Assembly: GCF_000025325.1 (NCBI RefSeq)
Contig: NC_013743.1
Span: forward strand, 372,001 to 436,000
DNA from: Haloterrigena turkmenica DSM 5511
GTDB taxonomy: Archaea > Halobacteriota > Halobacteria > Halobacteriales > Natrialbaceae
DNA: 64,000 nucleotides
Direction of reading: 5' to 3'
The translations under genes were made by a program, and so were the position numbers. Shown here one piece after another: positions 39,861 through 52,547 of this stretch. Numbering within the stretch: the stretch's first letter is position 1; the number at the start of each line of letters is the position of its first letter. The notes beneath the pieces are model-generated. The model searched no databases. It was not told where the DNA came from and saw only the letters and a program-made list of their open reading frames with translations.

Positions 39861-40130
39861 ATGCTCCCTCCCCGCCGGTCGTCGTTCCGGACGACCGTCA
39901 CCGCCCTCCATCCCGGGACGACCGTCCGCTATCACTACCGCACCGGCGACTCGCTGGCGACCGTCGTCGAATACACCGACCGGGTCGTCACCTTCGTCGG
40001 ACCGGACTGCGACGGCCGGTTCACCCACGACCAGATCGATCGCCTGCTCGAGGACGACCGCCTCGAGGTCGTCCTCGACGACGAGACGCACCTGCCGGAC
40101 GACGAGCCGGAACTGCTGCGATCGGACTGA
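39861..40130 (+). CDS. Conserved haloarchaeal hypothetical protein
   Basis: An 89-residue acidic protein. After MLPPRRSSF it shows an SH3-like beta pattern (LHPGTTVRYHYRTGDSLATV, then TDRVVTFVGPDCDGRFTHDQ) and ends with a very acidic tail. The start at 39861 is preferred to 39849 as it removes four residues without support. No function is recognised. Codon use is typical of the genome, which favours a real gene. Confidence 0.55.
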   Translation: MLPPRRSSFRTTVTALHPGTTVRYHYRTGDSLATVVEYTDRVVTFVGPDCDGRFTHDQIDRLLEDDRLEVVLDDETHLPDDEPELLRSD

Positions 40131-49018: not shown

Positions 49019-49750
49019 TCACTCGCTCGCCTCGACCGACTCGACGGTGACGGTCGATGCGTCACCGACCAGCGCGTCCTCGACGGCCGCGCGGACGACG
49101 GAGGGATCCGGCGGGCCACCTGCGTCCGCGACGGAGCCGACCGTGTCGGGGTCGAACGGGACCTCGAGCGCGCCGTAGACCGACTCGAGGACGGTCGCGA
49201 GCCGGCCTCGGTTCGCGACGAGGACGATTCCGGCGACGACGGCGGCGTCTTGGCGGACGCGCTGGGCGATGCCGACGACCTTGCGGTGACGCTCGGTACC
49301 ACCTTCTTCGCCGTCGCCGGCCGCCAGCGACAGTGAGTGCGTTCCGGGACAGAAGGAGTCGTCGGGCTCGCCGCGGACGGGTTCGAGACCGCCCGCGAGC
49401 GATCGGAGCGCGTCCTCGACGGCCGCCGTCGCGCGTTCGTACCGATCGTCGGTCCCGCGCCGGAAGTCCGCGACCGGCTCCGCGCGGGCGAAGGCGAGCG
49501 TCGTCTCGCCGTCATAGGCGACCGCCCGGCCGCCGACGTCGCGCTCGACCGGTGGGAACCCGCGTGCTCGAGCCCGCTCGCGGGCGCGGTCGTACCCCTC
49601 GAGGCGCCGGTCCCGGCGGCCGAAGGCGATCTGTCGGTGGGGCGTCCAGACTCGAACCGCGGGCTCGCCGTCGGCGGCCGTCGAGAGGAGCCGTCGGCTG
49701 GCCTCGCGGTCGGTCTCGATCGTCGCCGCGCGGCCGCGGAGCACTCGCAT
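49019..49750 (-). CDS. lplA: Lipoate-protein ligase A family protein
   Basis: A 243-residue member of the biotin/lipoate ligase fold. The lipoate-binding segment VERDVGGRAVAYDGETTLAF (the usual RR-GGG-V-H region has a DVGGRAV variant) and the conserved Lys in RHRKVVGIAQRVRQDA support the call. It would attach lipoate to E2 or GcvH proteins, or transfer octanoate. Compared with canonical LplA the C-terminal accessory domain is missing, as is usual in archaeal LplA-N types. Divergent from the M23-like gene, 65 nt apart. Confidence 0.85.
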   Translation of the reverse strand: MRVLRGRAATIETDREASRRLLSTAADGEPAVRVWTPHRQIAFGRRDRRLEGYDRARERARARGFPPVERDVGGRAVAYDGETTLAFARAEPVADFRRGTDDRYERATAAVEDALRSLAGGLEPVRGEPDDSFCPGTHSLSLAAGDGEEGGTERHRKVVGIAQRVRQDAAVVAGIVLVANRGRLATVLESVYGALEVPFDPDTVGSVADAGGPPDPSVVRAAVEDALVGDASTVTVESVEASE

Positions 49751-49815: not shown

Positions 49816-50805
49816 ATGGCCGTGACGCTTCCCGCGGAACTACTGAGCCAGTACCAGCGCTTCTCGCTGTACAACTCGCCGTATCCCGCCCACGACGAGG
49901 GGTGTGCCGTCGATCTCTACCCCGGCACGCTCCGCGACGGACGGACGAGCGCCGCCCCGAGCCCGGTCTCGGGGACCGTCCGCGAGACCCGCGACGTGAA
50001 AGCGCCGCCGAAGCCCTACGCGCCGGAGCACGATCACCTGATTCTGATCGACTGCGACGGACCGGGCGACCTCGAGGGACTGACGGCTCGAATCCTCCAC
50101 GTCCAGCCCACCGTCGAGGCCGGCGATCGGGTCGAGCGCGGCGACTCGCTGGGCGAACTCGTCCGCGCGGGGTTTTTCGCCCCATGGGTCGACAACCACC
50201 TCCACGTCGGCTTGCGTCGGCCCGACCAGAACCCCCACCGGGCGTCGGGATCGATCCCGCTCGAAGTCGGCGTCGAACTCCGTCCGCTCGAGTGGGACGG
50301 CACCGGAACCGTCGTTGCAACCGGCGCGACGTACGCCGTCCTCGACGCGCCCGCCCATCCCGACCCGGGCGAGGCGTTCGTCGGGGTTCGGGCCGATGAC
50401 GGGGGTGGGCCGAACGGGGTCGATCGAAAGACGCAGGGCGTCTTTCGTGACGACGAGAGAGCGGAGCTCTCTCGAACCACGAGGCGGTCCTCGTCGGAGC
50501 GACGCTCCGACGGTGGCGTGCTCGACGGCGGCCTGCCACACTACGACGGCGGTGGGCTGCTGGCTTCGGAAACGGACGGAGAGCGCGTCGTCTCGCTGAA
50601 CGGCGACCGCCTCGGCGTCGCCCGCGGCCGGACGATCACCTGGGACGACGTGGTCGTCACGGTCAACGATGAGCCCATCACCGGTCTCTCGCTCTTTTGC
50701 GCTCGAGACGCTGACTTCGGCGCGAAGCTGATCTGTCCCGATCGGCCGCTCGAGATCGGCCAGCGGGTTCGGGTGCGAGTTCGCCCTTCGCTCGAGCGCG
50801 AGTGA
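49816..50805 (+). CDS. M23-like peptidase-fold protein with an in-frame hairpin insert
   Basis: A 329-residue protein. The N-terminal 155 residues resemble an M23/LytM barrel sandwich: AHDEGCAVDLYPG (His and Asp of the metal site), PVSGTVRETRD, TVEAGDRVERGDSLGELV and WVDNHLHVGLRRP (HLH). No signal peptide is present, so a cytoplasmic role is likely. Residues about 204-232, a Ser/Arg-rich stretch unlike the rest of the acidic protein, are encoded by four tandem perfect hairpins (50425-50512) that read through in frame. The C-terminal 90 residues look normal again. The start at 49816 is chosen because the upstream frame is LplA's shadow. Confidence 0.75.
   Translation: MAVTLPAELLSQYQRFSLYNSPYPAHDEGCAVDLYPGTLRDGRTSAAPSPVSGTVRETRDVKAPPKPYAPEHDHLILIDCDGPGDLEGLTARILHVQPTVEAGDRVERGDSLGELVRAGFFAPWVDNHLHVGLRRPDQNPHRASGSIPLEVGVELRPLEWDGTGTVVATGATYAVLDAPAHPDPGEAFVGVRADDGGGPNGVDRKTQGVFRDDERAELSRTTRRSSSERRSDGGVLDGGLPHYDGGGLLASETDGERVVSLNGDRLGVARGRTITWDDVVVTVNDEPITGLSLFCARDADFGAKLICPDRPLEIGQRVRVRVRPSLERE
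50425..50512. repeat. Array of four tandem hairpins inside a coding sequence
   Basis: Four perfect inverted repeats lie end to end. Hairpin 1 has 10-bp arms (CGAAAGACGC and GCGTCTTTCG, 50425-50447, 3-nt loop). Hairpin 2 has 9-bp arms (CGAGAGAGC and GCTCTCTCG, 50454-50474, GGA loop). Hairpin 3 has 6-bp arms (ACGAGG and CCTCGT, 50479-50494). Hairpin 4 has 9-bp arms (CGTCGGAGC and GCTCCGACG, 50492-50512, GAC loop). The whole array is open in the frame of the M23-like gene. Confidence 0.85.
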
Positions 50806-51061: not shown

Positions 51062-52489
51062 CTAGTTCTGTAACTGCTCGCCGTCGACGACGCGGCCGAC
51101 GAACAGCGGCGTCTCGGTCGGCCGGTCGCGGACGTAGAAGAGGAACGGCCGATCGACGGTCATCTTGACGCGGTCCGCGACGGCGGTGTCCTCCATGACG
51201 ACGGCCGTCGCGGCCGCCGCTTCGGTCCCCTCCTCGTCGACCTCGACGAAGCTCTGGTGGATGATGTCGTCGACGTACAGGTCGCTGTCGTCGTCCTCGA
51301 CCATGCCGCTGAAGTCCGCATCGTTGTCGAAGGCACGTTCCATCCCCAATTCCCGCATGGTCTCGACGAGGCTGAACTTCGACTCGATGCCGAACTTCGG
51401 GAGCGCGAGGTCGACCTTTGGCTGCGACGTCTCCTCGAGCATGATCGCCAGCTCGTCGACGCCGAACGACGCCTCGAAGGACTCGAACTCGCCCTCGGCT
51501 GGGAGGACGACGATCATGCTCGTGTCGCCGTTGGCGTAGGGGAGCTCCACGAGCTGGTGGCCGTCGATCTCGGCGTAGCGCAGTTCCTGCGATTGGTGCA
51601 TCAGGTCGACCTCGGTCTCGCTGCCGTCGAGGCTCGTGAACGTCGCTGGCTCCGTCTCGGCGGGATCGAAGTCGTGCTCCCAGGCGGCCAGGAAGTAGAC
51701 GGCGTTCGTGAGGACGAGCCGGGTCCACTCATCGATCGAGCCCTCCGGCAGGAGGTCTTCGATCCGATCGTTCGTTCGCTCCTCGACCCAGGCGTTGATC
51801 TCCTCCCGGGCCGCCTCGGGGCTCCCCGAGAAGTCGGCGAGGTGGTCGCCGGCCTCGTAGTAGGCCTCGAGTAACTGGACGTAGGCGTCGTCGAAGTCGT
51901 GTCCCTCGTCGCGCCAGACGGCGTTGGCGCTCGAGAGCTGGAATCCGAGGTCGTCTTCGTCGCCCTCGCTCCCGTCTCCCTCGCCGCCCTCGTCGGCCCA
52001 CGCTGGCGTCTCGACGTCCCGACCGTCTTCGTTTCGTTGCTCGAACTCACCCTCGAGGGCGCCGAAGGCGGCGTGGAGGGCCTCGCCCTCGAGGTCGTAG
52101 CGCAGAGCGTCGGCCATCTCCGCGGCGGTCTCGCCGCGAGCCCCCGCGTAGGTCATCGCCAGCGCGACCGAGATGCTGTACGGCGAGAAAAACAGGTTCT
52201 CGCCGGGCGTCTCCTCGCGAAGCCGTGCGAGGACGTCAAAGGAGACGGCGACGTTTCCGCGGATCTGTTCGGCGAGGCGGTCGGACTCGAGGTCGGGATC
52301 AGTGGTGAGATCCAGTCGGGGAAAGTCGGGGACGTCGTAGTCGTCGAAGAGCGCGCCGTCTTCGGCACCGTTCGCGGGCTCGTCGCCGTTTTCGGGATCC
52401 TCCGCGTCGCTCACGTCACCGAGACAGCCCGCGGCGCCGGCGAGGAGGGCGCCGGTCAGGGCCAGCACGCGTCGCCTGTCAGCGGTCAT
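51062..52489 (-). CDS. Serpin family protein, predicted lipoprotein
   Basis: A 475-residue protein, MTADRRRVLALTGALLAGAAGC. The N-terminus has a hydrophobic signal with a lipobox ending AAGC and an acidic linker, so it is probably anchored outside the cell. The serpin body follows (ENLFFSPYSISVALAMTYAG, WVEERTNDRIEDLLP, VLTNAVYFLAAWEHDF). The reactive-centre hinge EEGTEAAAATAVVM has the small residues needed for loop insertion, so it may be an inhibitor; the scissile bond would be about 17 residues after the first hinge Glu, near a Thr-Ala. DRPFLFYVRDR closes the fold. A TATA-like box lies 27 nt upstream of the start at 52489. Confidence 0.88.
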   Translation of the reverse strand: MTADRRRVLALTGALLAGAAGCLGDVSDAEDPENGDEPANGAEDGALFDDYDVPDFPRLDLTTDPDLESDRLAEQIRGNVAVSFDVLARLREETPGENLFFSPYSISVALAMTYAGARGETAAEMADALRYDLEGEALHAAFGALEGEFEQRNEDGRDVETPAWADEGGEGDGSEGDEDDLGFQLSSANAVWRDEGHDFDDAYVQLLEAYYEAGDHLADFSGSPEAAREEINAWVEERTNDRIEDLLPEGSIDEWTRLVLTNAVYFLAAWEHDFDPAETEPATFTSLDGSETEVDLMHQSQELRYAEIDGHQLVELPYANGDTSMIVVLPAEGEFESFEASFGVDELAIMLEETSQPKVDLALPKFGIESKFSLVETMRELGMERAFDNDADFSGMVEDDDSDLYVDDIIHQSFVEVDEEGTEAAAATAVVMEDTAVADRVKMTVDRPFLFYVRDRPTETPLFVGRVVDGEQLQN

Positions 52490-52547
52490 ACCCGGATAGG
52501 CTACCCCGGACGATAAACGCCTTCTGTTAGCTGAAGTATCCCTTTGA

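Follow-up and report, generated by a model that had tools for sequence, protein, structure and literature searches.

Two nested palindromic elements as the probable source of an in-frame hairpin array in an M23-like gene of Haloterrigena turkmenica

A gene of the haloarchaeon Haloterrigena turkmenica DSM 5511 carries an in-frame hairpin array, which was most likely formed when two small non-autonomous palindromic elements, here called E1 and E2, entered the gene one after the other. The gene lies in a 64,000-bp stretch of contig NC_013743.1 (positions 372,001 to 436,000), referred to below as the window, and all coordinates are those of the window. The argument is built on sequence comparison: filled and empty sites in orthologous genes, the nesting of one element in the other, their dispersal over unrelated loci, the frame bias of E1, and paired changes that keep the stems palindromic. 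The best-known protein-coding palindromes are those of Rickettsia, a standing example of selfish DNA that adds peptides to working proteins. A comparable but distinct archaeal system, located in genes of core metabolism in many haloarchaea amenable to genetics, would allow two questions to be tested: by what route such elements spread, and by what means palindromes stay perfect while their sequence drifts.

The host gene is located at 49816-50805 on the plus strand and is open throughout, from an ATG at 49816 to a stop codon at 50805, encoding a protein of 329 amino acid residues with orthologues in 103 of 119 relatives. Judging from the ORF, its orthologues and fold matches, the protein has an M23 (LytM)-like N-terminal domain and a C-terminal beta domain. 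The original prediction had called the gene M23-like, which agrees with the AlphaFold2 model (29 orthologues, mean pLDDT 72), whose best structural matches are mostly M23/LytM domains of peptidases, but less well with Pfam, where the M23 match was sub-threshold (17.5 bits against a cut-off of 28.7). A Gly/Asp-rich linker occupies about residues 190-235. The model has pLDDT below 50 at residues 198-230, which is essentially the insert, and the linker is predicted to be disordered. The two neighbours on the minus strand look like a putative lipoate-protein-ligase-type protein (49019-49750) and a putative archaeal serpin (51062-52490).

All four inverted repeats predicted in frame were found within 50425-50512, with arms of 10, 9, 6 and 9 bp, and the translation of the segment is Ser/Arg-rich as had been claimed. 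They had been described as a tandem array of four hairpins; however, the third and fourth share 3 nt and cannot both form in full at the same time, and the predicted fold of the array uses the three long hairpins. This fold has an energy of −58.8 kcal/mol compared with −45.6 kcal/mol for shuffled sequences (z = −4.0), and one of 200 shuffles was as good. Third-order Markov copies of the 64-kb window contained about two hairpins of at least 9 bp with a loop of 3-4 nt per copy; two of them within 100 nt occurred in none of 100 copies, while the array has three in 88 nt.

The array is not one element but two different ones, E2 being nested in E1, which differ in consensus, distribution and coding behaviour. 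The E1 unit is 51 bp or 17 codons long (ERSxxSRSSSELRSDGG), contains two hairpins and is flanked by GACGGYGG direct repeats. The E2 unit of about 62 bp has the structure GTSGTT-hairpin-TGATGA-hairpin-AACSAC. In the window, E1 is flanked by the 9-bp direct repeats GACGGGGGT (50398-50406) and GACGGTGGC (50509-50517), both on the plus strand and both encoding Asp-Gly-Gly; DGG...DGG also surrounds E1 copies elsewhere, and these repeats may have arisen by target duplication or by recombination, or may be the ends of the element. Alignment with orthologues places the 5' part of E1 at 50407-50418 (plus strand, four codons, GPNG; compared with the E1-only orthologues L010, L013 and L221) and the 3' part at 50479-50508 (plus strand, ten codons, TRRSSSERRS). 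The 17 codons of E1 are thus split into two parts, GPNG and TRRSSSERRS-DGG, by exactly 20 codons (60 nt), which correspond to E2. The 3' part contains a 6-bp hairpin (ACGAGG/CCTCGT, loop of 4 nt, 50479-50494), and the second E1 hairpin, CGTCGGAGC-GAC-GCTCCGACG, has 9 bp and a GAC loop (50492-50512).

The covariance model of E2 (R1) recognised a full-length dual-hairpin element on the minus strand at 50419-50480 with 64.8 bits (E = 5e-14, model positions 1-60), the second best match in the genome. Read on the plus strand, it is GTCGAT-hairpin-TGACGA-hairpin-AACCAC. The two hairpins, at 50425-50447 (10 bp, loop AGG, supported by the predicted fold) and 50454-50474 (9 bp, loop GGA, with a stem repeated at other genomic sites), are separated by the 6-nt linker TGACGA at 50448-50453; the consensus on this strand is TGATGA, and the change keeps Asp. 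The net insertion is 60 nt (50419-50478), consisting of the codons VDRKTQGVFRDDERAELSRT, which are 20 codons beyond the structure in G067. The peptide encoded by E2 in the window has nothing in common with the E1 peptide.

Most aligned orthologues have the linker VRADGGGVLDGG with nothing extra, including those of the genus mates G001, G002, G004 and G005. Relative to these and to most other Natrialbaceae, the linker has gained 37 codons in the window and 17 codons in three E1-only carriers, namely G003 of the same genus, G067 of another genus and Natronococcus pandeyae (L221). E2 was found at this site in none of the other orthologues compared, and degenerate versions of E1 were found in four (L011, L024, L025 and L028). 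The alignment showed two steps of insertion, E1 and then E2. It also bears out the expectation that most orthologues lack the segment, since both E1 and E2 are absent from them. In the carriers of other genera, G067 and L221, the part of the segment that is present is encoded by matching palindromic DNA and not by non-palindromic DNA; the stems are intact in L221, and G067 has a single mismatch in a stem. The refuting test set in the original prediction therefore does not refute it. At a second locus, an Amt-GlnK fusion gene, this genome has no E1 at the site, while elsewhere the site is occupied and a DGG is duplicated. Around the intergenic E2 copy at C1:2554429 no clean empty site was obtained: the flanks are conserved, but the sequence between the genes is itself composed of several other repeats.

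Searches for the same hairpins uncovered related copies at other sites of this genome and in further haloarchaea. A profile of the E1 peptide matched 107 of 119 genomes at E≤1, with 11 matches in this genome, several of them at 1e-10 or better. A frame-blind DNA pattern for the second E1 hairpin was found in 39 of 149 genomes, its reversed control in none. Among the E1 copies that were fetched, 26 of 30 lie in called genes, and 24 of these 26, in about 14 different genes, are in sense orientation and in one frame, which encodes DGGERSxxSRSSSELRSDGG. E1-like copies outside called genes were seen at six loci (L118-L120, L144, L145 and L147). When 84,980 species were searched, the exact E1 pattern occurred 19 times, always in haloarchaea, and 18 of the 19 copies were in sense orientation and in the usual frame. 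A typical E1 has five of its six frames open, so the bias is not forced by stop codons and must come from the insertion site, from selection against other frames, or from both.

The host proteins of E1 belong to no fewer than nine unrelated families, and most of them are core enzymes or transporters. The hosts assigned by Pfam are pyruvate dehydrogenase E1 alpha, a DHH protein, an ammonium transporter-PII fusion, succinate dehydrogenase flavoprotein, an AAA ATPase, an oligopeptide ABC ATPase, a short-chain fatty acid transporter, cytochrome oxidase subunit I and carbamoyl-phosphate synthase, and in all nine E1 lies outside the recognised Pfam domains. Since E1 is found at orthologous sites across genera, many copies must be old and inherited, and copy counts do not equal independent insertions. 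Tandem copies of the 17-residue unit were observed in a short-chain fatty acid transporter (L201), where they are exact, and in a cytochrome-like membrane protein (L177).

E2 is distributed differently. In a scan with the middle hairpin, the same stem recurred on the chromosome beside constant linkers, and across the order the element has the form GTGGTT-hairpin-TCATCA-hairpin-AACGAC with variable stems. Of 199 genomes, 106 contain the strict E2 pattern, and the reversed control had no match; viral contigs gave no match to the strict pattern. At E<0.01 the covariance model, built from 26 copies, identified about 16 loci in this genome. None of these lies off the main chromosome, and even at E≤1 the six other contigs (about 1.55 Mb, the published plasmids) gave no match. 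When a simple gene caller was applied to 64 E2 loci, 55 were intergenic, between two called genes, and seven fell within a gene. The in-gene copies include one in a histidine-kinase gene (L106), two in genus mates (L245 and L250) and two in tnpB genes, and their reading frames and orientations differ between genes.

Several features of E2 were seen in passing. Its loops are mostly TTC/GAA and TCC/GGA, giving GNA triloops on one strand; GNA triloops make very stable DNA mini-hairpins. In L130 and L070, where arrays lie 3' of apparently the same gene, the linkers are kept and two hairpins are replaced by different perfect ones. Intergenic regions look like mosaics of several hairpin modules.

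In both elements the two arms of a stem change together. Of 18 E2 stem pairs, nine had changed on both sides, with only one cell G-U. In a set of 90 distinct E2 sequences, 1086 of 1131 inner pairs were Watson-Crick, 11 were G-T and 34 were other combinations. E1 copies found by peptide, and thus free of DNA bias, had arms of 7.6 bp on average compared with 4.6 bp after synonymous recoding. Third positions of the E1 arms were coupled (21 G..C, 4 A..T and 2 mismatched; Fisher p = 3e-4), as seen for Ser TCG/TCA with Ser TCC/TCT (p = 3e-4) and for Glu GAG/GAA with Arg CGC/CGT (p = 0.004), all synonymous on both arms, although the tests ignore the relatedness of copies and the p-values overstate independence. 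At the orthologous site of Amt-GlnK the arms vary between species, yet match each time. The paired stem changes, which are coupled and synonymous in E1, together with the near absence of G-T pairs, argue that the palindrome is kept at the DNA level, beyond what selection on protein or RNA alone would maintain. The paired synonymous changes in E1 also separate protein-level from DNA-level constraint within the same codons.

The array is most likely accounted for by a short series of events. E1 would have entered first, at a GACGGCGG (Asp-Gly-Gly) motif in the Gly/Asp-rich linker, leaving the motif on both sides. As the unit has 17 codons and its flanking motif is normally read D-G-G, E1 nearly always joins the same open frame. 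E2, a mostly intergenic element of 60-62 bp, would have landed in E1 later; we propose that the copy in the window survived because its net length of 60 nt is a multiple of three, and that both inserts were tolerated because the linker is disordered. The filled and empty sites point to transposition of copies, which probably moved as hairpins of single-stranded DNA processed by an enzyme that recognises them, and the arms may be kept identical by fold-back templated repair, by the needs of the mobilising enzyme, or by both. A resident Y1 transposase (PF01797) was considered as the mobiliser and rejected, since this genome has only a 38-amino-acid fragment with a stop codon, and neither an intact gene nor a RAYT was found in it; movement may have ceased, may be infrequent, or may depend on a different class of enzyme. 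The original suggestion of a mobile palindrome inserting in frame agrees with the absence of the insertion from most orthologues and with its relatives elsewhere, but it had treated two elements as one array, and mobility is deduced from the distribution of copies.

Part of the E2 data could be explained if E2 were the right end or omega-RNA region of IS200/IS605 tnpB elements, with the dispersed copies as their remnants, as proposed for the PATEs of Haloquadratum. In L045, L075 and L076, E2 and the 3' end of a tnpB-like gene overlap, and in the last two E2 lies inside a GCCTCGGGG/CCCCGAGGC stem. L045 and L075 favoured an intrinsic tnpB end; this candidate was weakened by L086 and L092, in which E2 is internal, upstream of the C-terminus and in opposite orientation, as an insertion would be. 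As only about 7 of the 82 loci checked, some of which overlap, had a detected tnpB and E2 matched no Rfam family, we regard this origin as unlikely. The same search, at E up to 1 and including omega-RNA and sotRNA families, gave no match for the whole array either, and this also bears on the alternative raised in the original prediction, a structured RNA that acts on the mRNA through stability, translation pausing or processing and is kept by selection on its fold. The strong predicted fold, the covarying stems and the position of some E2 copies 20-120 nt from the 3' end of a gene are in its favour. However, G-U pairs make up 11 of 1131 inner E2 pairs, without excess over other mismatches, the two orientations of E2 relative to adjacent gene ends do not clearly differ in frequency (34 versus 28), and E1 occurs in mRNAs of unrelated proteins at unrelated positions. 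The mRNA element was therefore not supported, and we give it a low probability.

Selection might instead act on the protein, a Ser/Arg/Asp-rich linker being kept or repeatedly evolved for its function with the palindrome as a side effect of codon bias. That many proteins carry the one peptide, read in the same frame, confined to linkers or tails and with low predicted order, fits such a role; the much shorter inverted repeats after synonymous recoding of E1 peptides and the coupling of synonymous changes on the two arms do not, and the E2 peptide of the window is unlike that of E1, with the frame of E2 differing between genes. This makes a purely protein-level origin very improbable. We attach still less weight to hairpins made locally by template switching during replication, with no mobile element. 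Template switching makes perfect inverted repeats and could maintain their arms (PMC6649704), but the same linkers and stems are found at distant loci and in other genera, and local events cannot produce shared linkers. Template switching is possible as a means of maintaining arm identity.

The successive insertion of two elements recalls several known systems. Rickettsia palindromic elements (RPEs) are short palindromes located in frame in many unrelated genes (PMC10969869, PMC3733652). Like them, E1 is a short palindromic repeat inserted in frame, in one frame, in nine Pfam-distinct hosts. Compared by description, E1 differs in being archaeal and 51 bp long with two hairpins and GACGGYGG repeats, whereas RPEs were about 150 bp as first reported; moreover, the haloarchaeal stems are kept perfect by paired changes while RPEs are reported to lose repeat identity over time (PMC6649704). 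Like the REPs and REPINs of bacteria, which are associated with RAYT, E2 consists of paired hairpins and is mostly intergenic (55 of 64 loci), and like a REP doublet it has GTSGTT tags at both ends in inverted orientation. REPs within genes are known (PMC3733652), and REPIN spacers undergo compensatory changes (PMC3116915). Unlike REPs and REPINs, the haloarchaeal elements have no GTAG/CGTC tag (E2 has GTSGTT, E1 is flanked by GACGGYGG, and the CGTC of E1 lies within a stem), and RAYT was not found in this genome. In E2 it is the linkers that are conserved and the stems that vary, whereas a REPIN combines conserved REP sequences with a variable spacer.

E1 and E2 resemble the SMRs and PATEs in being dispersed palindromic repeats of haloarchaea without a transposase. 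SMR-A of Haloquadratum walsbyi inserts into palindromes of other elements and of IS605-type transposons (PMC3119063), and E2 likewise sits in E1 and in tnpB genes. By their description, SMRs are 80-110 bp long with long terminal inverted repeats and more than 95% identity, unlike E2 with its approximately 62 bp and hypervariable stems. Like the coding palindromes of nematomorph mitochondria, E1 and E2 are perfect inverted repeats in genes with arms that evolve in concert (PMC6649704), but the nematomorph palindromes reach 284 bp and are not a dispersed family with shared linkers. No archaeal coding palindromes or REPIN-like repeats were found in the open-licence literature. Since the families E1 and E2 span many unrelated haloarchaeal genes, coding palindromes like those of Rickettsia exist in Archaea too, and the system works like RPEs, as in-frame coding palindromes, while resembling REPINs in architecture. 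More tentatively, and with less than even confidence, both may belong to a haloarchaeal class of mobile elements built of two hairpins, in which the linkers are conserved and the perfect stems interchangeable, an enzyme that reads single-stranded hairpins moves the element, and the arms are actively copied onto each other, E1 being the coding branch that adds a 17-residue linker to core enzymes.

Some further observations were made. The E2 copies in tnpB-like genes (L045, L075, L076, L086 and L092) occupy two positions in two orientations, which recalls the targeting of IS605-type transposons by SMR-A. At about 1380-1500 of L128, an intergenic repeat of about 120 bp adjoins E2 and has dozens of relatives in the genus. 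Another inverted repeat of the window, at 40048-40078, is unrelated to the array; its 12-bp arms match perfectly and its loop is 7 nt long.
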